Shown: positions 13,361-36,146 of the stretch, piece after piece | Numbering within the stretch: the first letter of the stretch is position 1 | Layout of the letters: each line of letters opens with the position of its first letter | DNA from: Acetobacteroides hydrogenigenes | GTDB taxonomy: Bacteria > Bacteroidota > Bacteroidia > Bacteroidales > ZOR0009 | DNA: 64,000 nucleotides | Direction: 5' to 3' | NCBI RefSeq assembly: GCF_004340205.1 | Contig: NZ_SLWB01000001.1 | Span: 248,001-312,000 of the forward strand | The notes under the pieces: model-generated | The model's database searches: none | What the model saw: the letters and a program-made list of their open reading frames with translations, nothing else | Told to the model about the DNA's origin: nothing | Translations under genes and position numbers: made by a program

Positions 13361-13834
13361 ATGCCATTGAACGATCTTATCTGCATAACCTTCTCCGACG
13401 ACGAGAAGAAGGCCATAGACAACGCCCTAGCCACGCTGGAGCAGGTGCTGGAGGGCAAGGTGGTAAACCTTACGCCCCTGCAGCGCAAGAAGTACAGCCG
13501 CGTAAAGTACAACATGGAGGGATGGGTGAACCGTTCCTCAAGCTTCCTCTACAACAACCCGCACCTGATCCCCTCGTATGTTGATGCCTCGAAGCTAAAG
13601 CTCGACCTAGAGGCGCACGGCTACCTAAATCCGTTAATCGATAAAATGTCGCTTATCCTTCAGGGGCTGACGGACACCAACCTGCTGCTGGGCACCGACA
13701 TCTACAACGCCTGCATGGGCTTCTACCGATCGGTAAAGGTTGCCTATAGGGGCAATGCGGCAGGCTCCTCAGCCATCTACGAAGAGCTTAAAAAGCAGTT
13801 CCCCGGTGGCAGAAAGAAGAAAGTCGAAGAGTAG
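13361..13834 (+). CDS. Orphan small helical protein next to a 22-bp repeat array
   Basis: 157 residues from the ATG at 13361 (a TTG at 13352 in frame is not needed). It is all soluble, predicted helical, with no signal peptide or membrane segment and a basic-acidic tail ending G-G-R-K-K-K-V-E-E. Recurrent family features I recognise from other Bacteroidota proteins are the L-T-P-L-Q-R segment, N-P-H-L-I-P-S-Y-V-D near 68-77, a central L..L..L-T-D-T-N-L-L-L-G-T-D-I-Y and a final A-I-Y-E-E-L-K-K-Q-F-P. I know no name or function for this family. Codons are more GC-rich than flanking DNA. The 22-bp palindromic array starts 127 bases downstream. Confidence 0.75.
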   Translation: MPLNDLICITFSDDEKKAIDNALATLEQVLEGKVVNLTPLQRKKYSRVKYNMEGWVNRSSSFLYNNPHLIPSYVDASKLKLDLEAHGYLNPLIDKMSLILQGLTDTNLLLGTDIYNACMGFYRSVKVAYRGNAAGSSAIYEELKKQFPGGRKKKVEE

Positions 13835-13960: not shown

Positions 13961-14180
13961 CCTAAATGTATTTCCGATATACATTTAATGTACTTCTGAT
14001 ATACATTAAATGTATTCCCGCAATACATTACAGCTATATTTGATATACCTCAAATGTATATCGAATATACGTTGAATACATTTCTGATATACCCATAATG
14101 TATTTCTGATATACTTTAAATGTATTTCCAATATACCTCGAATGTATATCCGATATACTTTAAATGTATTTCGGATATAC
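13961..14180. repeat. Ten-unit 22-bp palindromic tandem array
   Basis: Ten consecutive units of exactly 22 bases, each ending (G/C)ATATAC or close to it; consensus nnnAATGTATTTCYGATATAC. Each unit contains an imperfect palindrome, best in unit 9 (14137-14158) as GTATATC-C-GATATAC, and a second dyad spans each unit junction. Bases vary between units (unit 4 is most divergent) but the length never does. The array lies between the convergent orphan gene (13361) and pruA; a partial unit continues to about 14195. Confidence 0.95.
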
Positions 14181-14225
14181 ATTTAATGCATGACGATGAT
14201 CGGCTATTGCAGTGGTGGTGTAAAC

Positions 14226-17784: not shown

Positions 17785-20700
17785 CTATCGAAGCAACGTA
17801 ACATCTCCTCGAACATCGAATGTTTTCCCATTAGTAAATCGCCCCATTGCCCTGTACACGTAAACACCTTGCTCGCATAGCTTTCCCTTATAGTAGCCGT
17901 CCCAACCTATATTGACATCATTGCTTTCGAATAATTTTTCACCCCATCTATTGTAGATCAACAACTTGTAGGTAACAACGCCCTCGCTAATTGGGTGAAA
18001 AACCTCATTCTTATAGTCTGGCATTTCGTAAACTCCACCATTAGCACCATACGAGTTTGGAATAAATGCATTGGGGAATTTTAAAACGCCTTCGCCAACA
18101 ACTTTTACTCCCGCCTTAACCAAAGTGTCATCAGTACAGCCATTTTCGGAGGTCACGCGCAGCCTAACATCATAATTACCCAACTTTTTGTAGGTATACG
18201 TTGGATTTTTTTCGGTAGACGATCCAACCATATCTCCAAAATCCCAAGCGTAATCTTTTCCTTCGGTTGACGTATTATAGAACTGTACACGAGCCTCGGG
18301 AAGCATAGCCTCATTAGGAGCGAGCTTAAAACTTGCAACCGGATTAGGATAAACCTGCAGCGTCGTATAGGAGTACGAGTTACCGCCGTCGCCCTTTACG
18401 GTTAGCTGAACGTGATACTTTCCAGGCGTTTTATAAACGTGATATGGGCTATCCTCCGTTGATGTTGTTCCATCGCCAAAATTCCATTCGATAGACTTGT
18501 AGTACTTAGCCTGATGAACAAACTGTGTTTCCAACGGAGAACAGCTACTACCAACGCTCGATGAGAAAATAGAAACTGGGATAGCAGGCTTTAGATAAAG
18601 GAACTGCGTCATCTCGTCCTTACAGTTTCCATTAGACACCTTTAGCGTTACATTGTACTTATAGTCATTAGCAGGATCTCCCCATGTCTTATATGTATAA
18701 ACAGGAGGATCTACGCCTATGTACTTACCTCCATCTCCAAACGTCCATTCGTAATTCCAATTTGTTGCCTTTGGAGTAGTTTGGTTGTTAAACAGGAATG
18801 AAGCGTCAGGATAGGTCCTCAAAGGTGGATCTATGGTAAAGTAGGCTATAGGTGCCGAGAATACCGTAAAATCTTTCGATGATACATGCTCACAACCATA
18901 TTCCGATTTTACCTTAAGCTTGACATTATACACCTTATCCTGCTCCTGAAAATTCTGGAAAACATGGCTTGGTGAGCTAACGTGAGCCGTTACCCCATCA
19001 TCAAAATCCCAAGTGTAGTAAATAGCATTTTTTGAGGAATTAGCAAAGTTTACCGTCAAAGGATTACATCCTGCATCCGAAGGCGTAAACGTAAAAGCAG
19101 AAGTAACATGAGGATAGGTATAAACCTTCTGAGAAGTACTGTCTTTGCAACCAAAATCGCTAACCGCTTTTAGCCAGACCTCCGTCATTTTTGGAGTATC
19201 GGCAAGGTTATCAATATTGAACTGAACGTTAGAGTTTCCATTTCTCACAACAGATGCCGTTCTGTCATTATCCAGCCAGAAGGTGTACGTTGGCATGGAA
19301 CCTATAGAAAGATTCTGCACATCAACGTTAAAAGGAGCACAACCAGAGGCTGTGTTTATTGCCATTTGAGCCTTGGGAATGGGGCGAACAACAACCGTCT
19401 TAGTCGTTGAATCGCTACATCCATGGATAGAAGTGGACTTAAGCTTGACTGCGTATGTAACTCGCTCTGTTCTGGATAAATTAGTAAACGTATACTTAGG
19501 ATTTACATCCCCAGAGCTACCTAGACTTCCAAAACTCCACTTATAAGAAGCCGAGTTGTTGTACGACTTTGTCTCGTTTGTAAAGTTTACAACCAATGGG
19601 TTACAAGCTTCAGTAACATCCATTGCAAAGTCGCTTCGTGTTCCAGGATAAACATCTACCGAACGCTCAACCTCTTTGAAGCAGGTAGCATCTCCCTTAT
19701 AGAATACCTTTAGCTTTAGCTTTTCGGTCTGAATGGTATAATCCGTAGTCGAATTTATAAAGTTCAGATCAGGAATTTGCTGAGAAGTGCTGGTTCCGTT
19801 CGAACCTAAAGACCACTCGTAACGGTAAGCCGAAGATGGATATGCATTAACAACCTTCACGGCTAAAGGCGTACATCCGTTTACCTTATCTAAACTAAAA
19901 TCAGCCAATACCTTCGGATAAACGTCTACACGCTTGGTTGAGACATTAGTACATCCATCTTGGTTCTTAGATGTTAGCGTAATATTATAGGTTTTAATGC
20001 TAACAGTATCGCTATTAGTAAATACCATTGATGCAGGGGTAACGCTTGCCGAAGAAGTATTATTCCCAAAGTTCCAAGTGTACGCAGAAGAGCCAGTAGA
20101 CGAATTGGTAAACGAAACCGTAAGCGGATTACACCCCTTATCTGTACTTAAGCTAAAGATAGACTTGACCTCTGGCTGAGCATCTACAGTTTTGGTGACA
20201 ATATCGCTACATCCCGTTACGGCATCACGAGCCGTAAGGGTTAGCGTGTATGTTTGAGCACTTGAGGTATTGCTATTATAAATGTATGTTCTAAATCCAG
20301 CCTTTGATGTTGTTAGAGTATCTCTCTTATTCCCGTTTACTACATGCCCAAAGTCCCATGAATATTCGGTTCCATTAAGCGAACTATTGGTAATATCAAT
20401 CGGGAATGGAGTACACTTCGAAGGCTGAATAAAGGTAAAGGCCGCTTCTACTTTAGGATATACACCTATAGACTTAGATGTAGTAGCCTTACATCCCTTT
20501 ACGTTGGTAGCCGTTAATACCACATTATAATTCTTTGTGGTAGAGTTCCTATTGATAAATGTATGGGCTACCGTCTCAGAAATGTCCGAAGTCTTTACAG
20601 ATTGTCCGTCGTTAAAATCCCAGTTAAAAGAAAGATTTCCACCTGTTGATGTGTTGGTTAACACAACTGGAAGATCTGAGCATCCACCCACTTTATCTGA

Positions 20701-23700
20701 GGTGAACGAGGGCACTAATCTTGGATGAACGGTGAGATTAATTGTTGAATCGTCGGCACAGAGCGTATTTTTATCAAGTACCGTTAGCTTAATTGGGTAG
20801 TTCAACACTGTATTAGCCGATTCGCTATCTATAACCTTTTCAAATGCAAGTTTATCAGACTTAACATCAACTTGGGGTACACCTCCAATAGTATGACCAT
20901 AATCCCAGGTAAACTGCTGTCCATTGAGCGACGTATTCGTAAGCTTAACCTTCATTGGGCTACAAACCTCCAACTCTTCCAGCGTAAAACTCGACTCTAC
21001 TCTAGGTACTATCGAAATATCTTTTACAGCCTCAGCTGAACAACCAATAGCATTGCTAGCAATAAGCTTAGCATTAAACGTTGCATTGGTCGCATTCCTA
21101 TTCAAATAGGTATGGGATACAGGATCCAGCTTATCTGTAGTATACGCCGAACTTGGATCGCCAAAGAACCATGTATAGGTTGTTGCTCCAGTTGTGGTAT
21201 TTTGGAAAGATACCTTACCAGTACACTTATCAACAACCGAGCTGCTAAACGATGGCAGCACTTTAGGGTATACGATTAAATCCTTGGTGGAAACAGCAAA
21301 GCATCCGGATGTCTTATCCAAGGTTGTTAACTTTACTTGATAGGTTAAAACCTGATTAAGGCTTTCACTATCGATTATCTTCTCGAAAACATCCTTTGTA
21401 GCACGAACTTCCTGTTGCGCAATACCTCCAATAGTATGCCCATAATCCCATTTAAACTCGCTACCATTCAACGAGGTGTTGGTTAGCTTAACCTTAACAG
21501 GGGTACACTTCTCCAGCTCCTCCATTGTAAAACTTGACTCTACAAGAGGTACTATTGAAATATCTTGAGCATACTCTGCAGAACATCCGATAGAGTTACT
21601 AGCAGTCAACTTAGCGTTAAACGTTGCATTAATGCCACTCCTATTTAAGTAGGTATGCGCAACAGCATCTAGCTTATCGGTTGTGTACGAAGATGTCATG
21701 TCGCCAAAATTCCATGTGTAAGTAGTTGCACCTGTTGTTGCATTTTGGAAGGATAGCTTTCCTGTACACTTATCAATAATAGTACTAGTAAAAGAGGGTT
21801 TTACCCTTGGATGTACGGTAATGTCCTTTGTAGAAACAGCAGAACAGCCCGATGATTTGTCCAGTGTCGTTAACTTAAGGGTATAGGTTTTTACCTGAGA
21901 TGGATCTTCACTATCAATGATCCTATCAAAAGCATCCTTTACCGTTTTAACCTCCTGTTGAGCAACACCGCCAATTGTATGTCCGTAGTCCCACTGAAAC
22001 TCTGTTCCATTCAAAGAAGTGTTGATAATATGTATCTTCATAGGAGTACACTTCTCAACAACATCGTAGGTAAAAGCCGACTCGATACGAGGAACTATAT
22101 CCACGCTGAACGTTTTGGTGGCTTTACACCCCTTAGCATTTTCGGCAGTTAGTGTTGCCGTATATGTTTTTTGTAATGCTGTCCTGTTTTCGTAAGTGTG
22201 CTTCTGTGCAATAGCCGTAGCAACACCAGCTGATTGGCCATCGCCAAAATCCCAAGTATACGAAGTGGCGCCTGATGATGTGTTATTAAATGTAACCGCG
22301 CCGGTACATTTATCATCAACAGCAAAGGTACCACTTGCAACCACCCTAGGATCTACCACAACGGGAACAGCAGTAGCCGTTGCCTGACAAGCACCACCCG
22401 AGTTGGTTGCAACAAGGCTAATGTTGTATGTATTTGAGGTTGCCCCTGTATTATCGTAGCTGATGGTAAACGAATCCCCCGTTGTCTTGGTGGCGGTTCG
22501 TCCATCTCCAAAATTCCACAGGTAAGAGGTTGCCCCTAGCGATTTTGGCGTTATTTGCACATCGAATGGAGCGCAAGCCGACAGCTGCTGAACCGTAAAT
22601 GCAGCCTTAAGCAATGGATGTACGGTAACTGGCTTTGTTATAGTTGCAGAGCATCCATAAATAGAGCTAACCGTAAGTACCGGGTTAAAGGTCTTATCGG
22701 CAGTATAGTCAAAATTGTTGTACGTGTTAGACACACTTGAACCTGTTGCCGTAGCTCCATCATCAAACGACCATGAATAGTCGTAGTTTGGATCGTTGGT
22801 TGATGCCGTAAAAGTTACGGGTAAAGGATTACATCCTAAATTTTTATCAACCGTAAATCCAGCAACCGGCTGAGGGTAAACCCTTGCAAAACGCGATACC
22901 GTGTTAAAGCAACCTCCCTCGTTCGTAACCTTCAACGTAACAGAATAGTCTTTAGGTGTAGACGTAGTATTGGTAAACAAGTGCTGTCGTTCTGAGACGA
23001 AAGAGTTCTCAACCAAATCAACATTCGAATCGGTTTCAAAATCCCACTCATACTTATTGCCCGGATTGCCCTGCGACGTGTTTACAATGGTTGCGTTAAA
23101 GGGCGCACAGCCGCCCAAATCTTTAACCACAAAATTAGGATTGATACGCGAGTATACAGAAACCTTTGTTGGCAACACGTAAGTACTCTGACATCCAGAG
23201 ATCGACTTAGCCGTTAGCTTAACGTCGTACTGAATGGTATTGTAGCTAGAATTATTGTACAGGTGTGTTACGCTAGCAGTAGTGGTAGTAGCAGAGGTTG
23301 CTCCATCACCGAACTCCCAGAAAAAATCCGTAGACCCCTTGGATGAAGAGTTCGTTATGTTAAGAATCTCTCCGTCGCATAGCATATTATCCCCGACTGT
23401 AAAAAGGGCATTTACATAAGGATGTATCGTCACCTTTTGCTCGTGGAAGTCCGTACAGCCTCCTGCCCCTATTACATCAAGCCTTATTGTTCTAACATCT
23501 TCAGCCGCAGCATCAGGAGTTCGGTTGGTTGTAGCTACATCAAAAGCATTAGGAGCAGTTGCGCTTGCAGCAGATGTAAACCCATCCCAAGTCCAATTCT
23601 TCGACGCGATCATTCCGGTAGAACCGTCGGTAAGAACCGCATTAAAGTTAGGGTTAGGACATCCGCTATTCTTATCGAGCGTAAAATAGGCATCAACTAA

Positions 23701-26001
23701 GCCATAAACATCAATAGTATCTGTTGCTACCGACTTACAACCAAACTTATTCATCATTGTAAGCGACACGTTATACCGCTGCTTAGTCTTATCGAGAACC
23801 GAGAATGCATGATTGACAGTTGCAGCAGCAGTATTAATACTACCTCCATCGCCAAAATCCCAGATGTAGGTAATATCGCTAGCGGGCAATGCCGTTGGTG
23901 GCGATACATTCTCGAAGGATAGGCTACGAGGGGAACAGAAGGTTGGAGTTGGGTCTATTCTATTCAGCTTGGCTTCGACCGAAGGATAAACCGTAATCTT
24001 CTTTTCTATTACATCGCCACAACCCGACTCGCTCTTTACGATGAGCTGAACGGTGTAGGTTACGGCCGTATCGGTATTGTTTACGTATAGATGGCTAAAC
24101 TTTTCCACCAAACCAGGGGACTTAAACTTGTTCGAAACCGTATCGATTTTATCGCCAAAGCTCCAGCGTAGCTCTGCTGCGTTTAGCGAGGTATTGGTAA
24201 AGCTAACCGCAAGCGGCGAACATCCGGCAATTTTGTCGACCGAGAAACCCGCTTTTACCGGAGGCAGAATTTGAAGGTTAATGGTTTTAATCTCCTTCAT
24301 GTTACATGCTCCCGAAACCTCTACCTGGTACTGCTTTACCCCCTGAACCGGAATATTGGCAACCGGATTAAATACGGTAGGATCGCTAAGATAGTCTTCG
24401 GGAGTCCACTTGTAGGAGGTTCCGCCCTTGGCGTAAAGCTGAATTGGGGCGCCAAAGCAAACCTTGGTTTCGCCAGCCTCTACGCCTGCAACATTGGCAT
24501 CAATTTTCAGCTCGTTAAAGTCCGAGAAGAAACCGTAGTTACAGCCTCCGCTGCTGGCGCCGTAGAACACCCCGAAGTGGAAGAGGTCGCCCTTGTTGGT
24601 AAGAATATTCCCCTGTCCTTCCTTAAGGGAGGGAAACTTGCCGGTATTCCAGTTGAGCACCTGCAAAAACCACCAGTCGGTTCCGGGGAGCTGGGTCCAA
24701 TTACTTCCAGCCGCCGCCGCTAGGTTAATCTTTTCGCCGTTTAGGTAAAACGCATCTTTACCATTGCTACGAACCATAACGTTCGTATTAAACGACTTTC
24801 CTCCTTGGCTGAGCTTGTAAAATGCCACTTGGGTACTTCCGGTACACTTATCGATTGCGGGCAGAATGGCACCACCAAGCTCTCCGCCGTAACCTCCCAC
24901 ATGTAGCAGCGACACCTTCTTGTCAGCCTCTACGATGCAGTAATCGCCCAAGGTAGCAATGTCGGCCTGCTGCCCGGCATCTATGGTAACCGTTATAAAG
25001 TCGGCCGGATTGCCATTGTTGTTGTAGAACTTTACGGTTGTTCCATTCTCGGTTGCCGTCACATAGATGTGATCATCGCCGTTGGTTGCCTGTGTTTTTA
25101 GCACCACATACTTGAGCCCAATCGACGTCATATTTACCAGCTGATCGCCAATAATGTCGTAGTTGCCTCCCCCAAGATTGTGAACGGAGTCGTCGTTGAT
25201 GGTAATCGCAATGTTCTTATCCGAGGTGATGAGCGTTCCTGAAAGGTGATCGGCACCGTTACGCGCTGGTTGTCCACCTACCAGCTTTGGGACAATGCTT
25301 ATACACTCACCCTTATTCAGGGTAATATCCTTACCCGATCCTTTCGTAACGAGCGTTCCATGAATGTAGGCATCCTGGGTAGGCTCTACATGAACCGTTG
25401 TTGCATCTTCGGTTGCCACTATGTTTATGGAGGAATAGGCCGGGTGCGTATTCGAGAACTGGTGGTTGGAGCGCAGGTTTTGGAAGGGCACGTAGAACTT
25501 GGTTCCCAGCGCATTCTTCCCCTTAAGGGCATACAAGTCCGTATTGTTAACGTTGGCAATTTGGTAGTAGACCGAAATTGGGGTTGTCGCCGTAATTAGG
25601 ATACCGCACTTGTTAACCCCTGTAGGGTTTGTGGGGTTTGGTAAAGTCTTATATTGGTTTTCCGCATCAGGGTTTCCTGACTTACTCGCGATAACAGCCG
25701 TGTTAATAAACGGACTCATCGACTGTATGTACGCAGAGTTGGCCGGAATATCAATAATAATTGGGGTAAAGGATGGGTTAGCGGGCATGCTAATCGTTAC
25801 CCGGCTCGGCATATCCAATGTCGAAATCGTGAAATTCGCAGGTTCTCCTCCTGGAGACTGGTGCTCGTACGTAACATCGGGAATAACAAACCAGAATTCC
25901 GTATCGGTTTGCGCGAAAGATTTCAGTCCACAAACTGTAAATAGGAGCAATAGCAATATGCCCCTAAAAGGATTAAATTCAGCCTTTACCTTCATAACCA
26001 A
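17785..26001 (-). CDS. Giant PKD-repeat adhesin with IgGFc-binding-type N-terminus and gliding-type C-terminal domain
   Basis: 2738 residues. Signal peptide at about 1-31 (hydrophobic LLLLLF core, ending F-A-Q). Residues about 33-500 resemble the IgGFc-binding domain found at the front of many PKD proteins (T-D-T-E-F-W-F-V start). About 23 PKD-like units follow, recognisable by W-x-F-G-D or variants (WDFGDG, WDYGHT, WNFGD). The last 95 residues are a gliding motility-associated (CHU_C, type B) sorting domain, with F-P-N-A-F-I-P-N-S and the closing Y-N-R-W-G-E-K-L-F..W-D-G-Y-Y-K-G. It should be exported through the T9SS and displayed on the surface. A two-PKD block of about 180 residues is nearly repeated (DNA about 22,080 to 20,700). 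Ligand unknown. Confidence 0.92.
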   Translation of the reverse strand: MVMKVKAEFNPFRGILLLLLFTVCGLKSFAQTDTEFWFVIPDVTYEHQSPGGEPANFTISTLDMPSRVTISMPANPSFTPIIIDIPANSAYIQSMSPFINTAVIASKSGNPDAENQYKTLPNPTNPTGVNKCGILITATTPISVYYQIANVNNTDLYALKGKNALGTKFYVPFQNLRSNHQFSNTHPAYSSINIVATEDATTVHVEPTQDAYIHGTLVTKGSGKDITLNKGECISIVPKLVGGQPARNGADHLSGTLITSDKNIAITINDDSVHNLGGGNYDIIGDQLVNMTSIGLKYVVLKTQATNGDDHIYVTATENGTTVKFYNNNGNPADFITVTIDAGQQADIATLGDYCIVEADKKVSLLHVGGYGGELGGAILPAIDKCTGSTQVAFYKLSQGGKSFNTNVMVRSNGKDAFYLNGEKINLAAAAGSNWTQLPGTDWWFLQVLNWNTGKFPSLKEGQGNILTNKGDLFHFGVFYGASSGGCNYGFFSDFNELKIDANVAGVEAGETKVCFGAPIQLYAKGGTSYKWTPEDYLSDPTVFNPVANIPVQGVKQYQVEVSGACNMKEIKTINLQILPPVKAGFSVDKIAGCSPLAVSFTNTSLNAAELRWSFGDKIDTVSNKFKSPGLVEKFSHLYVNNTDTAVTYTVQLIVKSESGCGDVIEKKITVYPSVEAKLNRIDPTPTFCSPRSLSFENVSPPTALPASDITYIWDFGDGGSINTAAATVNHAFSVLDKTKQRYNVSLTMMNKFGCKSVATDTIDVYGLVDAYFTLDKNSGCPNPNFNAVLTDGSTGMIASKNWTWDGFTSAASATAPNAFDVATTNRTPDAAAEDVRTIRLDVIGAGGCTDFHEQKVTIHPYVNALFTVGDNMLCDGEILNITNSSSKGSTDFFWEFGDGATSATTTTASVTHLYNNSSYNTIQYDVKLTAKSISGCQSTYVLPTKVSVYSRINPNFVVKDLGGCAPFNATIVNTSQGNPGNKYEWDFETDSNVDLVENSFVSERQHLFTNTTSTPKDYSVTLKVTNEGGCFNTVSRFARVYPQPVAGFTVDKNLGCNPLPVTFTASTNDPNYDYSWSFDDGATATGSSVSNTYNNFDYTADKTFNPVLTVSSIYGCSATITKPVTVHPLLKAAFTVQQLSACAPFDVQITPKSLGATSYLWNFGDGRTATKTTGDSFTISYDNTGATSNTYNISLVATNSGGACQATATAVPVVVDPRVVASGTFAVDDKCTGAVTFNNTSSGATSYTWDFGDGQSAGVATAIAQKHTYENRTALQKTYTATLTAENAKGCKATKTFSVDIVPRIESAFTYDVVEKCTPMKIHIINTSLNGTEFQWDYGHTIGGVAQQEVKTVKDAFDRIIDSEDPSQVKTYTLKLTTLDKSSGCSAVSTKDITVHPRVKPSFTSTIIDKCTGKLSFQNATTGATTYTWNFGDMTSSYTTDKLDAVAHTYLNRSGINATFNAKLTASNSIGCSAEYAQDISIVPLVESSFTMEELEKCTPVKVKLTNTSLNGSEFKWDYGHTIGGIAQQEVRATKDVFEKIIDSESLNQVLTYQVKLTTLDKTSGCFAVSTKDLIVYPKVLPSFSSSVVDKCTGKVSFQNTTTGATTYTWFFGDPSSAYTTDKLDPVSHTYLNRNATNATFNAKLIASNAIGCSAEAVKDISIVPRVESSFTLEELEVCSPMKVKLTNTSLNGQQFTWDYGHTIGGVPQVDVKSDKLAFEKVIDSESANTVLNYPIKLTVLDKNTLCADDSTINLTVHPRLVPSFTSDKVGGCSDLPVVLTNTSTGGNLSFNWDFNDGQSVKTSDISETVAHTFINRNSTTKNYNVVLTATNVKGCKATTSKSIGVYPKVEAAFTFIQPSKCTPFPIDITNSSLNGTEYSWDFGHVVNGNKRDTLTTSKAGFRTYIYNSNTSSAQTYTLTLTARDAVTGCSDIVTKTVDAQPEVKSIFSLSTDKGCNPLTVSFTNSSTGSSAYTWNFGNNTSSASVTPASMVFTNSDTVSIKTYNITLTSKNQDGCTNVSTKRVDVYPKVLADFSLDKVNGCTPLAVKVVNAYPSSAYRYEWSLGSNGTSTSQQIPDLNFINSTTDYTIQTEKLKLKVFYKGDATCFKEVERSVDVYPGTRSDFAMDVTEACNPLVVNFTNETKSYNNSASYKWSFGSLGSSGDVNPKYTFTNLSRTERVTYAVKLKSTSIHGCSDSTTKTVVVRPIPKAQMAINTASGCAPFNVDVQNLSIGSMPTYTFWLDNDRTASVVRNGNSNVQFNIDNLADTPKMTEVWLKAVSDFGCKDSTSQKVYTYPHVTSAFTFTPSDAGCNPLTVNFANSSKNAIYYTWDFDDGVTAHVSSPSHVFQNFQEQDKVYNVKLKVKSEYGCEHVSSKDFTVFSAPIAYFTIDPPLRTYPDASFLFNNQTTPKATNWNYEWTFGDGGKYIGVDPPVYTYKTWGDPANDYKYNVTLKVSNGNCKDEMTQFLYLKPAIPVSIFSSSVGSSCSPLETQFVHQAKYYKSIEWNFGDGTTSTEDSPYHVYKTPGKYHVQLTVKGDGGNSYSYTTLQVYPNPVASFKLAPNEAMLPEARVQFYNTSTEGKDYAWDFGDMVGSSTEKNPTYTYKKLGNYDVRLRVTSENGCTDDTLVKAGVKVVGEGVLKFPNAFIPNSYGANGGVYEMPDYKNEVFHPISEGVVTYKLLIYNRWGEKLFESNDVNIGWDGYYKGKLCEQGVYVYRAMGRFTNGKTFDVRGDVTLLR
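20700..22080 (-). repeat. Internal near-duplications inside the PKD adhesin gene
   Basis: Blocks starting near 22,075, 21,535 and 20,995 (spaced about 540 bases) encode closely similar two-PKD modules: a W-D-Y-G-H-T-I-G-G unit followed by a Y-T-W-x-F-G-D unit, the third block partial. This suggests recent expansion by unequal recombination. Confidence 0.8.
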
Positions 26002-26549
26002 CAGCCAATTTTATAACTAAAGCTTAAGGGCATTACAACACGCCCATTATTCCCCCCTTTTCACACCTTAAAGAAAGAAAACATTTTTTTCAAAAAAAAC
26101 ATGGATTTCAAAAAAAAACACTTCGTGCACGAAATATAGCATTTCGCTAATGCTAGGCGCTATGCTTTCAAGCAATTATTCGTTAAGAAAAATTTGTGCC
26201 CCCCCGAGCGCCTCCCCCTGCACCAGCAAGAAACAGAAGTGGCACAGCTATAAGCATGCAACGGCACAACCCTATTTACCCGAAACCTACCGATCGTAGC
26301 CTCCCGAAGGTTGTAGCGAAGCGCAAATCCCGAGAAGCGGGGCCTTTTTAGAATCTATTAAATTCCGATTTTAGATGCCGGAACAAGCCCGGCATGAGAG
26401 CGGCAATTGAGCTATATGCGTAACTGAACGTCATTGCATCTCCAATCTCTCGTCGCACATCTCATATCTCACATCTCACATCTCATATCACAAGTACAAA
26501 AAAGCCCACCCCATTGCAAGGTAGGCTTCCGATAGTTACCCCAAAGCGG
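26002..26549. other. Intergenic region upstream of the PKD adhesin
   Basis: No gene seen. The right part carries short direct repeats of about 10 bases built on CATCTCATATCTCA (about 26457-26490), next to the end of the DUF6261-like gene, and a CCCGAGAAGCGGGG hairpin followed by T5 near 26320-26348. The adhesin promoter should lie at 26010-26150 but no clear TAnnTTTG was found. Confidence 0.4.
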
Positions 26550-27290
26550 CTACTTCTGCTCGCCTCCTTCGGTCTTGGTTGGGTCATCCTTTTTCTTCCG
26601 CTCGTTGTACTTCTGGCGGATGCTTAGGTAGCGGCTGTAGATGGCGCGCTGCAGCTGGGCAAACTGCTCCTTGTTGGCGTTGTACTTGGCGTTGTAGGCC
26701 AGGTAGCCGTAGAATGCGTTGATGGCATCCTCCAGCTTCCTACGGCTCTTGGTGGCCGATAGGCTGTTCCTAAACTCTTCCTTATCGCTCTCCATCTCGC
26801 CCCAATCCGAACGAAAATCGTTCTCGCACTTGTCCAGATTGTCAACGAACACCTTTACTCCGATCTCGGTGGCCATCTGGTAGTTCTCGGGCTCCTTCAG
26901 GCGGTTGATGATGATCTTCAGGTACTCGCTCTCCTTCGAGTCGGGCAGCCTTTCGACACTTGCACCGTACATGTCCATAATGCTGTACAGCTTGGTTGCC
27001 TTTTGGCTAACCTCATCGACAGGCGAGTAGGTTAGCGAATCGATAGCCTTACGAGTTCCCACATAGGCATCGTCGCGACGCTTATCGGCCTCGTTTTTCG
27101 ACAACGTATTGTCGCTTTTACGTACACGAGCCATGGCGTCGTCGTAGCTCAGCTGCTCGTTTACCACCTCCTGGTAGGGTGCCGACTCCTTCGCCTCCTT
27201 GAGGGTCGAAGCCACAACCTCCTCCTTGATAACCGTTGCAACCGAACCTACATCGGCGACACCGAGCTTGGCCATTGCTAATTCGTCCAT
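26550..27290 (-). CDS. DUF6261-like protein of unknown function
   Basis: 246 residues with ATG at 27290. Soluble and predicted all-helical, highly charged, with no signal peptide; the tail is hydrophilic (K-K-K-D-D-P, ending E-G-G-E-Q-K). The layout fits DUF6261 proteins of Bacteroidota as I know them: a first helix pair, then a conserved K-S-D..A-D-K-R-R-D-D-A-Y-V-G-T-R-K-A-I-D segment near 78-103, then a helix with Y-S-I-M-D-M-Y-G and L-K-I-I-I-N-R-L-K, and a C-terminal helix. Function is unknown. Its 5' flank holds a 42-bp palindromic array beginning about 115 bases upstream. DUF assignment is from memory and would need a profile search. Confidence 0.65.
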   Translation of the reverse strand: MDELAMAKLGVADVGSVATVIKEEVVASTLKEAKESAPYQEVVNEQLSYDDAMARVRKSDNTLSKNEADKRRDDAYVGTRKAIDSLTYSPVDEVSQKATKLYSIMDMYGASVERLPDSKESEYLKIIINRLKEPENYQMATEIGVKVFVDNLDKCENDFRSDWGEMESDKEEFRNSLSATKSRRKLEDAINAFYGYLAYNAKYNANKEQFAQLQRAIYSRYLSIRQKYNERKKKDDPTKTEGGEQK

Positions 27291-28287
27291 AAGAATTAGT
27301 TTTTTGATTAGCGGCTGACTGCTTTTGCACCATTTACTTAAGGCAAGGTCGAATATCCCTAACGCAAGCTACTACAAGGGCTATACTGCCGGTTGCACAG
27401 GCTATAGCTCAGCTGCCGGGTGGCGATAGAGCTTTATACCCTGTAAAAGCTCAGCTGCCGAATGGCAATAGAGCTTTACGCTTTGTAAAAGCTCAGCTGC
27501 CGAGTGGCGATAGAGCTTTACACTCTGTAAAAGCTCAGCTGCCGAATGGCGATAGAGCTTTACTCTCTGTAAAAGCTCAGCTGCCGAGTGGCGATAGAGC
27601 TTTACTCTCTGTAAAAGCTCAGCTGCCGAGTGGCGATAGAGCTTTACATTCTGTAAAAGCTCAGCTACCATGTGGCGACGGAACTTCTCCCTTGGTGAAA
27701 GCTCGACCCGAGGTTTCACGCAGCTGCTACAGCTTGTACTACGATTAAAAATTTGGAAATTTTTGTAGGCTATTGGGCCCGATTTGGCTGAATAGCCCGT
27801 AATGTTATGCGTTAGCTGATATTTTTGCTGGCCTAAAGAATGCTACTAAAAACAATCTTTACCGATGCCTAAGATAAAAAATTTAGTTTGGTTAACAAAA
27901 CAAGTATAAATCTTCATGGTGACTTTTTGAAAGTACGCGCTTGACCCATTAAAAAGAGCACCATTGGTCGGCTTATGCTGCTTTTATTGCCGTTGGCTGA
28001 AGCTAATGGCAATGAGATCGGCATGATAGAATCAGGACTCTTTTATCACGCCCTAACCAGACGGCTACGAGGGGGCTGCCACGGATCGGCCCAAAACTCC
28101 CAAGAAAACCTTTAGCGAAATTTTAGCAATATTAAGCTTATGGCAATGGCGCTTTTTATGCCTAATAATTAAGGAGAACGGGGTCGATTATAAATGCCAC
28201 AAGAAATCATGAAAAGCTTTCGCCCTAAATTTATTGATTAATTAAGCTATATTTCAAACCGAAAAGCTATAAGATAACTGTTGGATT
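27291..28287. other. Intergenic region with palindromic array
   Basis: No gene seen in 997 bases. It contains the 42-bp array (27406-27699), then AT-rich DNA with a 13-base-pair hairpin at 27986-28013 that uses two G-T wobble pairs (ATTGCCGTTGGCT / AGCTAATGGCAAT). The 318-base frame across the array is a repeat artefact. Confidence 0.6.
27406..27699. repeat. 42-bp palindromic tandem array upstream of DUF6261-like gene
   Basis: Six complete units of exactly 42 bases (starts 27406, 27448, 27490, 27532, 27574, 27616) and a seventh degenerate unit from 27658. Each holds the inverted arms GTAAA(A)GCTC and GAGCTTTAC, with an inner GCC/GGC pair, so each could fold as a hairpin. Units differ mainly in a short window before CTGTAAA. 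The array sits 115 bases upstream of the gene at 27290, in its 5' region. Confidence 0.95.
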
Positions 28288-31200
28288 ATGAGAATAGGGA
28301 TGAGAAGGATGATGCTGTACATCATCCTATTGGTGTGTTCTACCATTGAGCTAAAGGCTCAAACGGTTTACCTAAAAGAAGGCTTTGAGCTGGGAAGAAA
28401 ACCCGACGGATGGACAGAAGAAGCGGTTGTAGGGGGCGTCCCTTGGCGCTACCGAAATGGGGGATACAACCCCGACGATCCAAACCTTTTGAAGCCGGCT
28501 GCAACGTACGACATGTTCAGAAACCCCGATAGGGCAAAGGCAGGAACCTATAACTCATGGTTCTTCACCCAAGGCTTCGGAAGGGAGCAAACCAAGCTGA
28601 TTACGCCTCCCCTAGACCTAAAGTTCGCGGTAATCCCAACCATAAAGTTTTGGCTAACCATTTACGAATGGCGCGTACCCACAGGGGTAAACAACGACAT
28701 CCTGCGAATCTACTATAAAGTAGGGTTCAACGGGGGTTGGAGGCTCCTGCAAACCTACAACTTTGGCCAAAACGAGTGGCGCGACTTCCAGCTAAACCTC
28801 CCCGCCGAAGCGCTTCAAAAGGACGTTTACATCGCCTTCGAAGGGCTAAGCCGCTGGGGGATGGGGATCTGCCTGGACGAGGTTAAGATCGAGGAGACCG
28901 GATCACAGGCCAAGACCCTAGTAGAGGTGGTCGCCGATGAGGTAACCACCGACGTCATCCCCAACGGGACCAGCAACAACCCCATCCTTCGCTCTAGGCT
29001 AAAGGTAACCGGCAACACCGGCAGCGCCATCCTAAGCAGCGTAAAGGTAAACGCCACCGCCACCAAGCTAACCGACATAACCCGCGTAACGCTGTACGCC
29101 ACACAGGAGCCCGAGTTCAATACCTCCACTCCAATAGCGAGCGGCACCCTAGGCGGCAGTTCCACCATTCTCACCCCCAACTACAGCCTCCCAACGGGCT
29201 ACACCTACCTATGGGTTACCTACGATATTGCAGCAGACGCTAAAAGTGGCAATACCGTCGATGCTGAGATTCCCGCAAGCGGGATTACGGTCAACGGAGC
29301 CGCGTACGCCAACGCCACCCTCAACTCTGGCGGTATAAGGGTGATCAAACAGAAGCTATTCTTTGATGACTTCGAAACCAACACGGGATGGATCCTGTCT
29401 AACGATTTCGAAATTGCCGCACCGATGGGCAAATCGGGGGCGTTCGGCAACCCCGACCCTGCCAATGCCGTAAGCGGCACGAAGGTTCTCGGAAACGACC
29501 TGACCAAAGACGGGGTGTACGATGCCAACATTCCCTCTTCGGCCCCATACACCGCAACATCGCCCAGCTTCGACGCTCTTTTCTACAAAGGGTTGATCCT
29601 AAATTTCAAGAGATGGCTGAACGTTGACATGTACGACACCGTGAAGATTCAGGCGACCAAAGACAACGGTGCCACATGGACTACGCTTTGGGAAAATACC
29701 GACTACGCCCTCGACGACGGCTGGCAATCCGCCTCGGTGGCCTTCCCCGCCGAGTTCGACAGAGCCCACGACATAAAGCTGCGATTCACGCTCTCCTACA
29801 CCAACGGAGACCGGGAGTTCACCGGATGGAACATCGACGATGTTTCGGTTATCGGCAACTTCATGGAGAAGGATTTGACCATGACCGGAATCCTTAGCCC
29901 AACCAGTACCTGCGGAAACTCAGCCACCAGCCAACCGATTACCATCAAGGTGAAAAATGCCGGATCGAAGGAGGCCGTGGCCCCCATCCCCGTAAAGATT
30001 ACCATTAACGGCGGCACCACCATCAACGACAAAATTGACCAGAACATTGCCCCAGGTGCCGAAGCAACGGTAACCCTAGGCACTACATTCCCAGCCAACC
30101 TCTATGGCGATCTGAAGATTATTGCCCAGGTGCTGCTTCCCGATGATGAGGATAACGTAAACGACACTACCAGCGTAAACGTACATATTTCCAAAACGTA
30201 CAAGGTGCCGTACACCACCAATTTCGACACCCCCGAAGATTGGGTAAAGGAAGGCTACAACTGGATGCATGGAGTATCAACAGCCCCCAATATCTCTGGA
30301 GAAAGCGATGCCGATAAGATGTGGATTACCAACCTTAACGGCAACTACAACAACAGCACCAAGGCAACTCTAACGAGCCCCTGCTTCGACATTATTGACG
30401 TAGAGAGGCCCATGCTCGAGTTTAAAGCCAACTACATCACCGAGCTGGAAAAGGATGGGGTAACCCTATCCTACTCCACCGACAACGGCACCACCTGGCA
30501 GCTGTTAGGCAACAATGGAGACAAGTGGGATGCGTTATGGGAATGGAATAGGCAAAGTACCATCGCCTCGTCGGGCAAGGTGGGCTTTAGCGGCAACAGC
30601 GACGGATGGAAAACCTTTAGCCACCTGCTCCCTACTGCCCTTAACGGAGCTACCGGCGCCAAGTTCCGTTTCGAGTTTACCAGCGATGCCCAAAACAGCT
30701 TCTACAGCGGATTTGGGCTCAACGGATTTACCATAAAGGAAGCCCCCGATGACTTTGGGGTTTCGGAGATATCAAAACCCGTGGAGCTAACGGGTACCGA
30801 TGTTTGCAATGGCTTTACCGAAACCGAAAAGATAACCTTTAAGGTAAAGAATCTCGGAATAAAGAAGGCTAAAGCAGGAACTGCTGTAAAGGTTACCTTC
30901 GAGTCGAAATACGCAAAAAAATTAGGAGACCCCGTTTCTAAAACCGAAACGTTCGAGGAAACGTTTACGCTTCCTGCAGACTTAGATGTAAACGCCGAGC
31001 AGGAGTTCATAACAACGAAAACCATAGACATGAACCGTGGCGGCCTCTACCAAATTACCGCCAAAACCATAGACGACCCAGAGAATTTCTACCTTACCAA
31101 CAACGATTCGTTCACAAAGCTTATAAAGGTGAACAAGCCCATTGTAGACCTTGGTCCAACAGTAATGCTAGGAGGCCCCAATCCAAGCTTGCATAAATTC

Positions 31201-34200
31201 GACATTTCTGGCGACGCCTCAGGGTTCGACTATACCATAGATTGGCTAGTAAAGATTGGCGATGGAGCTTGGGCTGTAAGTCCCAACGGCACCAGCGGAG
31301 CATACGTTCGAAATGTTACAACCGGAGATTTCGTTGATCCCAACAACAAGATAACCTACAAGGTTACGCTAACCGAAAATACATCGAAATGTAACGTCAG
31401 CAGCACAACCGTTGTTTACAAGCTAAACCCCGACGTTGCCGTAGATAAAATAGTATCGCCAGTTGATGCCTGTAGCCTTAGCGATAAGCAAGCCGTCACC
31501 ATCAGCTTAACCAATAACGGGAAGGATATAGATATCATTAAAGCAGGAACGGAGCTAACCCTCCAGCTCAACTTTAATGGAACTACAACCCCACCCCATA
31601 CATTTGCGGTTCCTAACGATGTAGCCTCGGGCCAGTCGTTTGAGTACACCTTCCCCGAAACGTTTAACATGTCGGCTACGGGCACAACCTATTCGCTAAA
31701 GCCATCGGTTACCATGCAGTACGACATCAAAGTTGCAAATGATATGCTCGATGCTAGCGTAAAATCGTTTGGATTCCCAGCTTTTACGCTAACCCCTCAA
31801 ACGCAAACCGTAAACGCGCTCGACTACACCTACGATGCAGACCCTGCAATGGCGTACAAGTCGTACGAGTGGTACGATAAAACCACGCTAAAAACAAACA
31901 AGGTTGTTTATCCTGGGCCTGCCGATGGCAAAGTGTGGTGTACGGTAACCGACAACAACGGATGTAGCACCAAATCGGAAGCAACTATAACCTTTGCGGT
32001 AAAGGATATTGCTGTGAAATCGGCAAATAACATTCAAACGTCCTGCACCCACGATCCTGCAATGAAGCCTTCGCTTACCATCGAGAATAAGGGCAACGTT
32101 ACAATACCTAGCGGCACGGTAATCCCATTTGAGATACTAAAGAATGGAGCCTCAACCAACGATAGCTATACGCTTGCGGCCGATTTTGCGCCTGGTGCCA
32201 CTACCGAAATCATACTAAACAACCCCATCGATCTATCGGCCAAGGGGAACTACACGGTAAGCTTTACCGCTAAGCTTACCGACGATTTGGTGGCCGACAA
32301 CAACACGCTAGCCACCACCGTAGAAACCTACGGGCTTCCCCAGTCGACCCTTCCCCCTACGGTAACAACCAAAGACGTGGAGGTAACCCTCGATGCCGGT
32401 GCCGGATTTACGGACTACAAATGGAGCACTACCGAAGCAAGCCAAACCATCCTAGTATCAAAAGATGGGAAGTACGATGTTAAGATCACCGATGCCAACG
32501 GATGCTCCAACATTTTTAGCTCGCAGGTAACCTTTATCCGAAACGATCTAAGCGTTGAGCTTACATCGACCTACGGAACCGCCAGCACCGTTTGTACAGG
32601 TGCAGACGAATACCCCGTTAGCATCAAGATAACAAACAAGGGTAACGATACGCCCGTAGCAGGAACAAAGATTCCGGTAACATTCAAGGTTGGGGCTACG
32701 GAATTCAGCGAAGAGATCACCCTTGTAGCCGACCTTGCCCCCAACGCAAGCATCGACTATACATTTACAAAGAAGGCTACGTTTACAACGGCTCAGCCAA
32801 CGGGCGTTTCGGCAATGATTACGCTCGACGACCTGAACCTAACCAACAACTTTACCAACGTCATAAACGTAACGGTAAACCAAACGCCGACGGTTAGCCT
32901 AGGTGCCGATGTTACATCAACATCAACTAGCCACACCATTGTGCCTACCATTACCCCCGATCTGGCATCGAACACCTACAAGTGGAATACCGCCGCTACC
33001 TCGAAGACGCTGACGGTAACCAACTCGGGAAGCTACGCGCTAACGGTAACCAACCAAGGCTGCTCGGCATCGGACGAAGTTGTGGTAAGCTTTAACCGAA
33101 AAGACATTGCAATAGCATCCATAGACAGCCCTAAGGACTTCTGTGCATCTACCGAAGGCCATGCTGTTGCTGTAAGCTTCAAAAACTCGGGGCTGGAGAA
33201 TATTGCGGCGGGAACAAAGGTTACCCTTTCGTACACGTTTAACGGCAATACCGTAACCGAAGAAACCACCCTTGCCGAAGAAATGACCATCGGCAAGACC
33301 ATAGCCTACACCTTTACCCAAAAGCTACCCGCGCTAACGGCAGGCAGCTACTCCATTTCGGCAACGGCAACCTTTGCCAGCGATGGTGTTGCCGCCAACA
33401 ACACGCTTACGGGTAACTTTAAGGTTAATCCGGCTCCTACGTTTACGCTCACCAATCCGATTACCAGCAGCGATGCACAGGTAAGCATTACAGGCCCTGC
33501 CGGCATGAGCAAATACCTATGGAGCAATACGGCAACGACCCAAAACATTACAGTAGAAACAGGAGGCACCTACTCGCTAACCGTAACCGATGCCAACGGA
33601 TGTACTAGCACCCAAAGCACCGAGGTGGTTTTCAGCACGGACATCGAGCTTACTGCTATTGTAAACACCAGCATTTGCCAAAACAACACACCAGAACCAA
33701 TAACCGTAACGGTAACCAACAAGTCGGGAAGAACAATCACAAAAGGATCAGAGCTAGATTTTGATGGTACCATAAATGGAGTTGCATTTACAGAGGAACT
33801 GATGCTAGCGGCCGACTTGGCGCCCAATGCATCGACAACCATCACGCTAACGGCCTCGCTTCCTAGAGCTACGGCTGGTCAATATCCTATTACGGTAGAA
33901 GTGGACATCGATAACGATCTTAATACGGACAACAACAAGAAGGATGCTACCATAACCGTCAACCCAACCCCAACGTTTACCCTTCCGGCCGATATCGTTT
34001 CGTCGAACACGCAGGAAACCATCAACGGGCCATCGGGAATGGCAGCTTACCTGTGGAGTACCGGTGCAACAACCCAGTCGATAACCGTTACCAAATCGGG
34101 AACCTACACCCTTAAGGTAACCAACGATAAGGGCTGCTCGTCCGAGCAATCAATCTTGGTACAGTTTAGGGGTGGCGACCTCGTTCTTAAGTCGATCGTC

Positions 34201-35586
34201 AACAACGAAAAAATGTGCCAGTCGGGCCGCGCGGTTCCCCTTTCGCTGGTAATTGGCAACGATGGCGATATGCCGATACTGAAAGGGGAAACCATTACCA
34301 TCTCCGTTAAGTCGAATGGCTCCGTAAAGACGGAAAACTTCGTGCTCACCGAAGATCTTCTGGCCAAAACAACAGCCACCATCACCCTTACAACTGCCAC
34401 CGGGATTAACGCCGCTACGGCAGGAACCACCGTAACGGCCGAGGTGAGCGTTAGCTACCAGTACGACGTAAATACGAATAACCCATCGGTAACCCGAACC
34501 TTTACGGTGGTGGCCAACCCAACCTTTACCATCGACATAAAAACGGCAACCGACAGGAGCGAAGCTACGCTTACGGCCAACAAGCCCGAGCTAAGCTACC
34601 TTTGGTCGACCGGCGCTACCACCAAGGAGATTACCGTTTACGAGAATAGCCTATACAAGGTAACCGGCACGAATGCCGACGGGTGTACGCTTACCAAGGA
34701 GGTTGCCATAGACTACCTGATCCCTTCGGTAAAGAACATCGTCATGGTTTATCCTGCCGTAAGCCAAACCAAGTGCTACGATGGGAAAAAGGCGCCATTC
34801 GAGGCCATGCTCGTTAACGAAAGCACCAACACCCCGGTTGCCACAGGAACTAGCATCAAGATATCCTGCACCTACCGTATCGACAAGCCCGATGGTACGG
34901 CCTTAGAGTATAAGTTTAGCGGCACAACAACGCTTGCCCAGGAGCTAAAGCCTGGCCAAAGCATCGTGTACCGCTTCGATAACATGACCGCCCAGGGCAA
35001 GCAAGCAGCCAACATGGTGGAGGAAGCTGCGGGCAAGCACACCATTGCCGGATTCTCTGAAATTGGCGGCAAGCAAAGCGCCGTTAAGACTACGCAGTTC
35101 GAAATCTACCCTATACCCAAGATCAACCTAGGCAATGATGTTATCTACCGTCCGCTACCAAGCACCCTGAACGTTAACCTCACCAGCGACTACACGTTCC
35201 TATGGAGCACCGGACAAAACACCAGCAGCATCATCATCGACACCGAAGGGGAGTACTGGGTAAAGGTTACCAGCAAGAACGGCTGTACGGCATCCGATAC
35301 GGTAGAGGTTAAGCAGGGAGCCGAAGAGGCCACCCTTAAGATGAACCTGTACCCCAATCCGGCCGTATCGTTTGTCAACATAGAGGCTTTTGCCAGCAGC
35401 AAAAGCGACATCTTCATAGAGGTATACTCGTCGGTAGGCGCGCTTATCGAGTCGAAGAAGTTTGAGGCCACCACCCAGGCCATCATCCTCAACTACGACA
35501 TCAGCCGCTTAGAGTCGGGCAGCTACGTGGTAGTAGCCCGAACCAAGGATAAGAAAATGGCCAAAATGCTGCAGGTAGCCAGGTAG
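28288..35586 (+). CDS. Giant secreted protein with choice-of-anchor J-like, CARDB-like repeats and T9SS type A sorting domain
   Basis: 2432 residues. Signal peptide at about 1-25 (hydrophobic, ending L-K-A-Q). The first 200 residues (F-E-L-G..W-T-E) and a second block near 365-530 (W-N-I-D-D-V-S-V) have choice-of-anchor J / MAM-like jelly-roll features; between them (about 210-350) lies a sialidase-N-terminus-like domain. The long middle is built of CARDB-like and Ig-like modules of about 175 residues, each marked by Y-x-W-S-T and G-Y/K-x-V-x-V-T-x-x-x-G-C. The C-terminus (L-Y-P-N-P..L-Q-V-A-R) is a type A T9SS sorting domain. Cells should export and anchor it by the T9SS. Function is unknown. 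Confidence 0.9.
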   Translation: MRIGMRRMMLYIILLVCSTIELKAQTVYLKEGFELGRKPDGWTEEAVVGGVPWRYRNGGYNPDDPNLLKPAATYDMFRNPDRAKAGTYNSWFFTQGFGREQTKLITPPLDLKFAVIPTIKFWLTIYEWRVPTGVNNDILRIYYKVGFNGGWRLLQTYNFGQNEWRDFQLNLPAEALQKDVYIAFEGLSRWGMGICLDEVKIEETGSQAKTLVEVVADEVTTDVIPNGTSNNPILRSRLKVTGNTGSAILSSVKVNATATKLTDITRVTLYATQEPEFNTSTPIASGTLGGSSTILTPNYSLPTGYTYLWVTYDIAADAKSGNTVDAEIPASGITVNGAAYANATLNSGGIRVIKQKLFFDDFETNTGWILSNDFEIAAPMGKSGAFGNPDPANAVSGTKVLGNDLTKDGVYDANIPSSAPYTATSPSFDALFYKGLILNFKRWLNVDMYDTVKIQATKDNGATWTTLWENTDYALDDGWQSASVAFPAEFDRAHDIKLRFTLSYTNGDREFTGWNIDDVSVIGNFMEKDLTMTGILSPTSTCGNSATSQPITIKVKNAGSKEAVAPIPVKITINGGTTINDKIDQNIAPGAEATVTLGTTFPANLYGDLKIIAQVLLPDDEDNVNDTTSVNVHISKTYKVPYTTNFDTPEDWVKEGYNWMHGVSTAPNISGESDADKMWITNLNGNYNNSTKATLTSPCFDIIDVERPMLEFKANYITELEKDGVTLSYSTDNGTTWQLLGNNGDKWDALWEWNRQSTIASSGKVGFSGNSDGWKTFSHLLPTALNGATGAKFRFEFTSDAQNSFYSGFGLNGFTIKEAPDDFGVSEISKPVELTGTDVCNGFTETEKITFKVKNLGIKKAKAGTAVKVTFESKYAKKLGDPVSKTETFEETFTLPADLDVNAEQEFITTKTIDMNRGGLYQITAKTIDDPENFYLTNNDSFTKLIKVNKPIVDLGPTVMLGGPNPSLHKFDISGDASGFDYTIDWLVKIGDGAWAVSPNGTSGAYVRNVTTGDFVDPNNKITYKVTLTENTSKCNVSSTTVVYKLNPDVAVDKIVSPVDACSLSDKQAVTISLTNNGKDIDIIKAGTELTLQLNFNGTTTPPHTFAVPNDVASGQSFEYTFPETFNMSATGTTYSLKPSVTMQYDIKVANDMLDASVKSFGFPAFTLTPQTQTVNALDYTYDADPAMAYKSYEWYDKTTLKTNKVVYPGPADGKVWCTVTDNNGCSTKSEATITFAVKDIAVKSANNIQTSCTHDPAMKPSLTIENKGNVTIPSGTVIPFEILKNGASTNDSYTLAADFAPGATTEIILNNPIDLSAKGNYTVSFTAKLTDDLVADNNTLATTVETYGLPQSTLPPTVTTKDVEVTLDAGAGFTDYKWSTTEASQTILVSKDGKYDVKITDANGCSNIFSSQVTFIRNDLSVELTSTYGTASTVCTGADEYPVSIKITNKGNDTPVAGTKIPVTFKVGATEFSEEITLVADLAPNASIDYTFTKKATFTTAQPTGVSAMITLDDLNLTNNFTNVINVTVNQTPTVSLGADVTSTSTSHTIVPTITPDLASNTYKWNTAATSKTLTVTNSGSYALTVTNQGCSASDEVVVSFNRKDIAIASIDSPKDFCASTEGHAVAVSFKNSGLENIAAGTKVTLSYTFNGNTVTEETTLAEEMTIGKTIAYTFTQKLPALTAGSYSISATATFASDGVAANNTLTGNFKVNPAPTFTLTNPITSSDAQVSITGPAGMSKYLWSNTATTQNITVETGGTYSLTVTDANGCTSTQSTEVVFSTDIELTAIVNTSICQNNTPEPITVTVTNKSGRTITKGSELDFDGTINGVAFTEELMLAADLAPNASTTITLTASLPRATAGQYPITVEVDIDNDLNTDNNKKDATITVNPTPTFTLPADIVSSNTQETINGPSGMAAYLWSTGATTQSITVTKSGTYTLKVTNDKGCSSEQSILVQFRGGDLVLKSIVNNEKMCQSGRAVPLSLVIGNDGDMPILKGETITISVKSNGSVKTENFVLTEDLLAKTTATITLTTATGINAATAGTTVTAEVSVSYQYDVNTNNPSVTRTFTVVANPTFTIDIKTATDRSEATLTANKPELSYLWSTGATTKEITVYENSLYKVTGTNADGCTLTKEVAIDYLIPSVKNIVMVYPAVSQTKCYDGKKAPFEAMLVNESTNTPVATGTSIKISCTYRIDKPDGTALEYKFSGTTTLAQELKPGQSIVYRFDNMTAQGKQAANMVEEAAGKHTIAGFSEIGGKQSAVKTTQFEIYPIPKINLGNDVIYRPLPSTLNVNLTSDYTFLWSTGQNTSSIIIDTEGEYWVKVTSKNGCTASDTVEVKQGAEEATLKMNLYPNPAVSFVNIEAFASSKSDIFIEVYSSVGALIESKKFEATTQAIILNYDISRLESGSYVVVARTKDKKMAKMLQVAR

Positions 35587-35680: not shown

Positions 35681-36146
35681 ACAAACGACCTGTTCGATTC
35701 AACATCCCATTTGTTGAGTCCGACAAATGGCTTGTACAATTCAACATTTCATTTGTTGAGTCCGACAAATGGCTTGTACAACTCAACATTTCATTTGTTG
35801 AGTCCGACAAATGAAATGTACAACTCAACATTTCATTTGTTGAGTCCGACAAGAGGTTTGTACGATTCAACATCTCATTTGTTGAGTCCGACAAGAGGTT
35901 TGTACGATCCGACATTCCATTTGTTGAGTCCGACAAATGGCTTGTGCGATCCGACATTTCATTTGTTGAGTCCAACAAATGGCTTGTGCGACTCAACATT
36001 TCATTTGTTGAATCCAACAAGAGGCTTGTGCTATTCAACATTTCATTTGTTGAGTCCAACAGGTGGCTTGTACGACTCAACATCTCATTTGTTGAGTCCG
36101 ACAAATGGCTTGTGCGATCCGACATCCCATTTGTTGGATCGAGCAG
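35681..36146. repeat. 42-bp palindromic tandem array between adhesin and biotin carrier genes
   Basis: Ten complete units of exactly 42 bases (35698, 35740, 35782, 35824, 35866, 35908, 35950, 35992, 36034, 36076) with a partial unit at each end. Core CATTTGT-TGAGTCCG-ACAAATG is a 7-base-pair palindrome, and TCAACA / TGTTGA forms a second overlapping stem. Different arms are exchanged between units (ACAAATGG or ACAAGAGG; TTCAACA, CTCAACA or TCCGACA), yet length is fixed. Because 42 is divisible by three, both strands stay open as long frames. Confidence 0.96.

Follow-up and report, generated by a model that had tools for sequence, protein, structure and literature searches.

DUF6261 (PF19775) genes were found to be accompanied on their 5' side by tandem arrays of short dyads kept in step with the DNA helix, a linkage that is established to a high degree. 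This pairing, present in nearly all DUF6261 relatives examined, points to an undescribed DNA-and-protein partnership; no account of such arrays was among the papers listed by our literature searches, and DUF6261 was mentioned there in one unrelated paper only. The locus described here lies in a window of 64,000 nucleotides of the Acetobacteroides hydrogenigenes genome (G000, 3.86 Mb; C1:248001–312000), to which the coordinates below refer. We read the window array as a recognition array private to the DUF6261 gene just 3' of it, with a probability of roughly 45%. The linkage, the constant period, the co-inheritance of array and gene, the existence of orphan copies and the conservation of the dyad type are each directly supported by the observations presented below. 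DUF6261, a family without a function so far, thereby gains a constant genomic partner as a first handle on its role, and each cell would offer dozens of natural candidate protein-DNA pairs with diverged sequences and fixed geometry, suited to the study of co-evolving recognition codes and repeat arrays.

The array, its gene and the surrounding expression unit

TRF placed a tandem array at 27406–27678 (period 42, 6.5 copies, 91% matches, score 448), and a unit profile resolved it into seven 42-bp units at 27411–27704 on the reverse strand, each carrying a GAGCnTTTAC-N5-GTAAAGCTC dyad and a weaker second dyad. On the gene strand, the unit reads GAGCTTTTAC-N5-GTAAAGCTC, followed by the weaker dyad TATCGCC-N4-GGCAGCT, whose GCC-N4-GGC core stands ~21 bp from the first. 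A preliminary description of this DNA, made from the letters alone, had reported a 42-bp palindromic array beside a DUF6261-like gene; the array proved real, with seven units in the GAGC phase in place of the six claimed, and the arms and the variable centre of 4–5 bases were as described, while the second dyad of each unit had been missed. The distance of about 115 bp between the array end and the gene start at 27290 was likewise correct, as was the view that the open frame along the array is a by-product of 42 = 3 × 14. A coding array was rejected because a period of 41 is common among the sister arrays.

The dyads recur every 20.5–21 bp, i.e., every two helical turns, so that the sites share a single face of the helix. 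In an ungapped symmetry test, the consensus unit of the window array, whose stem carries a bulge, did not reach significance (p 0.27 for reflection, p 0.09 for the stem); symmetry at p < 0.05 was found in 26 of the 60 arrays tested. CRISPR arrays are also tandem, partly palindromic repeats behind a leader-like stretch, as is the window array. However, the latter contains no unique spacers and repeats its whole 42-bp period at 91% matches (TRF), and membership of that class was rejected on these grounds.

The adjacent gene (26550–27290, reverse strand) encodes a protein of 246 aa predicted to be all-helical (pLDDT 89, pTM 0.57), and its DUF6261-like label was confirmed by a Pfam match to DUF6261 (E 3.9e-19; 69.5 bits vs a curated cut-off of 27). 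A PDB fold search with the predicted model gave no telling relative, the many helical bundles matched at Z about 8 including an S23-family four-helix protein, and the best matches of a PDB sequence search were designed proteins (E 0.04). DUF6261 matched no nuclease or transposase family, and defence and phage libraries gave weak matches only (PDC-M03B, E 0.0008; phrog_6940, E 0.0097). Isoelectric points in the family range from 4.6 to 9.7 (median 6.8; 5.4 for the window protein), so the family is not generally basic, and the protein presents no feature showing DNA binding. Its diversity is broad, with a mean column identity of 21% and zero invariant columns; alignment A1 leaves out 6 of the 103 sequences (L031, L036, L071, L090, L111, and L113) for their length or breaks. 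Giant genes lie on both sides of the window locus, one (17785–26001) for a protein with PKD repeats and a CHU_C secretion domain and the other (28288–35586) for a protein of 2432 aa.

Alignment of four related copies, namely the window locus (L025), L022, L094, and L122, showed that their similarity begins near a TTG-N19-TATCTTAG motif (27869–27898, reverse strand), kept in all four some 165–195 bp before the array, and extends over a conserved leader (27705–27868, reverse strand), the array, a conserved spacer up to the start codon (27291–27410, reverse strand) and the gene. We take this motif to be a putative promoter. Between the two G000 copies, there was little similarity past the promoter-like point and none past the T run of a terminator-like hairpin (26500–26530, reverse strand), which marks the right end of their similarity; such sharp limits indicate that the duplication nearly coincides with a single expression unit. 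L094, the orthologue of the window gene in the genome G002, is apparently frame-shifted near its start, possibly through a sequencing error, and other genomes have intact copies.

Relative to shuffles, promoter-like sites were enriched upstream of the arrays (22 vs 7.6 ± 2.2) and in the stretch separating array from gene (21 vs 9.2 ± 3.1), and were not enriched downstream of the gene (7 vs 8.0). Because a promoter-like motif is conserved upstream of it, the window array is probably transcribed within the leader; a second transcription start after the array is possible at some loci. The preliminary description had proposed an operator array or a 5' leader of the gene: its tie to the gene finds strong support, and the array probably belongs to the transcribed leader. 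The separate array types of the paralogues and the orphan copies lay beyond the scope of that description. The position of the array, apparently downstream of the promoter, is less usual for an operator and speaks against the recognition-array reading.

Linkage, co-inheritance and orphan copies

In the 450 bp preceding the gene, TRF detected arrays with a period of about 40–43 bp, or a multiple of it, for 27 of the 33 DUF6261 genes of G000, and for 72 of the 104 DUF6261 loci over 11 genomes. A lag test, which compares the identity at lags 38–45 over the 700 bp ahead of the gene with 30 shuffles and is more sensitive than TRF, was positive for 33/33 genes in G000 and for 89 of the 103 testable loci in the 11 genomes (L081 was untestable, and two of the 18 family matches of the genome G001, both at contig starts, were left out), against 16 of 252 other genes of G000 taken as controls. 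The preliminary description had suggested a search for arrays upstream of homologues, whose absence would speak against its proposal, and the arrays were present in these proportions. The positive loci showed lags of 42 (51 loci), 41 (30), 40 (5), and 43 (3) only. Several of the 14 negatives were near the limit; among the 14 was L079, which is 94% identical to its array-bearing orthologue L012 and yet has a wholly different upstream sequence without an array. Arrays 3' of the gene were found at only 2 of 104 loci.

DUF6261 is rare, being present in 6 of 41 genomes of relatives and in 6 of 296 genomes drawn across the phylum (own genome counted in both), with as many as 38 copies in one sister species. 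The link extends to further families of the order: TRF found upstream arrays at 6/7 loci of G031 and 1/1 of G004, and the locus of G039 was positive at lag 42. Among 13 loci from named Flavobacteriia records, namely of Chryseobacterium, Kaistella and a Flavobacteriaceae MAG, 11 were positive at lag 41 or 42; two of the 13, L174 and L184, appear to repeat the genomes of L130 and L131, counted before.

Array units were unrelated between paralogues, while close orthologues had units in common. Expressed as counts converted from fractions, units were common to 15 of 23 DUF6261 pairs with a protein identity of 60% or more, to 3 of 10 at 55–60%, and to 1 of 2245 below 55%. Array and gene are thus inherited together, with the sequence drifting and the period staying. 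Between G000 and G002, three housekeeping proteins were 96–97% identical, and the DUF6261 orthologues (29 reciprocal best pairs) had a median identity of 75%. Judged by such comparisons, the family evolves fast and its arrays faster still, with the period kept; inheritance from one ancestral array could partly explain this constancy.

Arrays were also found away from these genes. In a sample of 464 kb (the window plus twenty 20-kb stretches, its own array and two TGHAKNV-adjacent arrays left out), 18 arrays lay beside neither DUF6261 nor TGHAKNV, a second gene family described below. Seven of these orphans matched a DUF6261-linked array of G000 or a sister genome, with reversed arrays as the null, and the other 11 had no such match. 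The window unit recurs at a second DUF6261 copy on C3, whose protein is 98% identical, and at orphan sites in the argD-argB gap, upstream of an oxidase-like gene, at C4:30709 and at C18:1894 (gene names here were read off protein sequences, not annotation). Twelve arrays from three species, with 69 units, mixed variants of the two dyads. The argD-argB array of G002 combines, as a mosaic, the ancestral unit with the type found at G002's own DUF6261 copy. In G001 the gap is occupied by an unrelated 43-bp array, which is matched at only one further place in the three genomes, upstream of another DUF6261 gene (L123). All three species bear arrays in this gap (L138, L139, and L140), G001 carrying one that belongs to another DUF6261 type, as though array types replaced each other at a fixed site. 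The orientation of array-bearing gaps showed no significant bias (3 of 19 divergent vs 24 of 91 without arrays).

Two more palindromic arrays of the window had no DUF6261-linked match: one of 42 bp with 10.6 copies at 35691–36136, between two convergent genes, and one of 22/44 bp at 13963–14188, which comes after a nameless 157-aa helical-looking gene (13352–13834). In addition, a second helical family, without a Pfam or NCBIfam name and with proteins beginning ...TGHAKNV..., includes five genes of G000 (L125–L129) as well as L055:14644–15366 and L059:7232–7954. Arrays of 21/42 bp were found about 110–220 bp downstream of the gene in four of the five copies, and the contig of the fifth ends early. 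A fold search with TGHAKNV gave no telling match, and a profile comparison of the two families returned a probability of 3%.

Double-stranded DNA or RNA as the putative recognised form

Among the possible mechanisms, we rank recognition of its own double-stranded array by DUF6261 first, a role of the leader RNA next, and REP-like mobility after it. In the first, the unit runs from a promoter-like motif through a leader, the phased dyad array and a spacer to the DUF6261 gene and its terminator. DUF6261 multimers would bind cooperatively to the dyads of their own array type, and the bound protein would tune its own transcription from inside the leader and act likewise at the orphan copies in other intergenic gaps, with about 33 such protein-array pairs working in parallel in one genome, each paralogue with its own repeat sequence. 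That DUF6261 is the binder, that dsDNA is its target and that the effect is regulatory is what we infer; the protein is the candidate because of the genomic linkage and because each array type would call for a binder of its own. Against this reading stand the significant symmetry of only 26 of the 60 arrays, the 11 orphans without a DUF6261 match, the array-less L079, a period that may partly stem from one ancestral array, and a protein that is not basic. Helix-phased tandem dyads beside the gene of a binding protein are known from ParB/ParR-type centromeres and iteron plasmids, and the arrays described here are alike in their helical phasing and in adjoining the gene of a candidate binder. 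In contrast to them, about 33 independent versions, unrelated in sequence, share one chromosome, and no partition or replication gene was noted at the window locus. Somewhat more tentatively, DUF6261 genes and their phased dyad arrays may form a new kind of genetic element, made of a large set of independent protein-array pairs per genome, with quick turnover of the array sequence and preserved period and dyad geometry, whose arrays would spread to further intergenic sites, placing these under control of the paralogue or within its nucleoprotein filaments; TGHAKNV would be a parallel branch with 3' arrays.

Rather doubtful in our opinion is the reading in which the array works as RNA, as a run of hairpins transcribed in the leader that is bound by DUF6261 or acts on attenuation or mRNA stability, with the orphans acting likewise in operon gaps. 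The promoter-like motif kept upstream of the array in four copies and the presence of orphans between co-directional genes, as in argD-argB, would fit it. So would the fold energy of the window array, below that of dinucleotide shuffles on both strands and most clearly for the gene-sense RNA (z −4.0; −2.5 for the other strand, −3.5 for gene-sense ssDNA), which leaves room for an RNA form. As the working form of the array, however, the hairpins foreseen in the preliminary description find no support in wobble or compensation counts.

Pairing in RNA should produce an excess of G-U and compensatory changes, whereas a dimeric protein on dsDNA should conserve half-sites. In 22 strongly symmetric arrays, variability was 0.24 at the dyad centre, 0.04–0.11 at 3–7 bp and 0.22 at 9–10 bp. 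Single departures from pairing in these arrays comprised 83 G-T, 80 A-C, and 107 others, and double changes numbered 35 (12 of them Watson-Crick) against 28.5 expected, which we do not count as an excess of compensation. Dyad A of the window family gave 42 G-T and 39 A-C, with 3 double changes vs 4.1 in shuffles. Thus, neither dyad A nor the 22 symmetric arrays showed the compensatory changes and G-U tolerance of an RNA hairpin array. Dyad B presented paired C-G to G-C swaps, in 44 double-change cells that belong to a few linked types. Over 73 arrays, the gene-strand ratio of G-T to A-C at three stem thresholds was 112:118, 44:76, and 24:28, the middle one leaning to A-C with a p of 0.004 for cells that are not independent. 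Rfam covariance models matched nothing in the window at gathering score, and the single weak match (E 0.22) fell outside the array; besides, hairpins need no fixed period of 41–42. With half-sites conserved, G-T equal to A-C and compensation not in excess, dsDNA is favoured over RNA hairpins.

Mobile repeats and other binders as possible alternatives

For REP/BIME sequences and RAYT (TnpA-REP) transposases, PMC2817692 describes a rapidly evolving protein gene that adjoins palindromic repeats of its own, the co-evolution of these repeats with the protein, and their dispersal in intergenic gaps, often as alternating clusters. By analogy, the DUF6261-array system resembles REP/RAYT in its logic, since its repeats also co-evolve with the protein and occur dispersed, while two defining features of REP/RAYT are missing. 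The protein is an all-helical DUF6261 and not a Y1/HUH transposase; the repeats are tandem with a fixed period of 41–42 bp, on the 5' side only and without a gene-flanking pair; and the orphans are few per type. No Y1/HUH tyrosine transposase was found beside the repeats, as the neighbour matched DUF6261 alone (Pfam). The three Y1_Tnp genes found elsewhere in G000 have no 42-bp array within 1.5 kb (TRF), and one of the three has a DUF6261 gene at a distance of about 1 kb. Membership of RAYT was rejected for the absence of a Y1/HUH gene beside the repeats and for arrays that are upstream only (downstream 2/104). The system may instead be an unrelated counterpart of REP/RAYT.

We consider it unlikely that the arrays are selfish, REP-like mobile repeats whose copying or protection is aided by DUF6261, with regulation being incidental. 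Such mobility could account for the orphan arrays at unrelated loci and the mosaic units across arrays, for the duplication of the whole unit, with sharp ends, on another contig, and for the fast divergence of DUF6261 relative to housekeeping proteins between sister species. However, DUF6261 belongs to no nuclease or transposase family, no target duplication was seen, and orphans per type are few. Nor was a clean empty site obtained for the second gene copy, because the flank used as a query (L022:700–1345) consists of dispersed repeats that match dozens of places in G000 and G002.

Quite improbable is the binding of the arrays by another DNA-binding protein, such as an XRE regulator, with DUF6261 as merely the target gene. 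An XRE-like gene directly precedes the array at 10 of the 13 Flavobacteriia loci, all five of these XRE-like proteins that were scanned contained HTH_3, and DUF6261 itself is not basic. In the genus of the window, however, a profile built from these XRE-like proteins found only one weak match at DUF6261 loci, and about 33 unrelated array types would require equally many other binders. Finally, neutral minisatellites lying near these genes by chance deserve next to no credence: arrays are common in G000 (the 18 orphans in 464 kb), but the reading is already contradicted by the array-gene linkage (33/33 vs 16/252), by its restriction to one side of the gene (downstream arrays at 2/104), by its persistence across distant families and by the conserved half-sites.

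The Flavobacteriia XRE-like proteins encoded before the array have a coiled-coil-like tail. In Chryseobacterium (L174–L184), the N-terminal parts of these genes differ and the tail (EKLIEQYEERIKELK...) is in common, as if domains had been exchanged.
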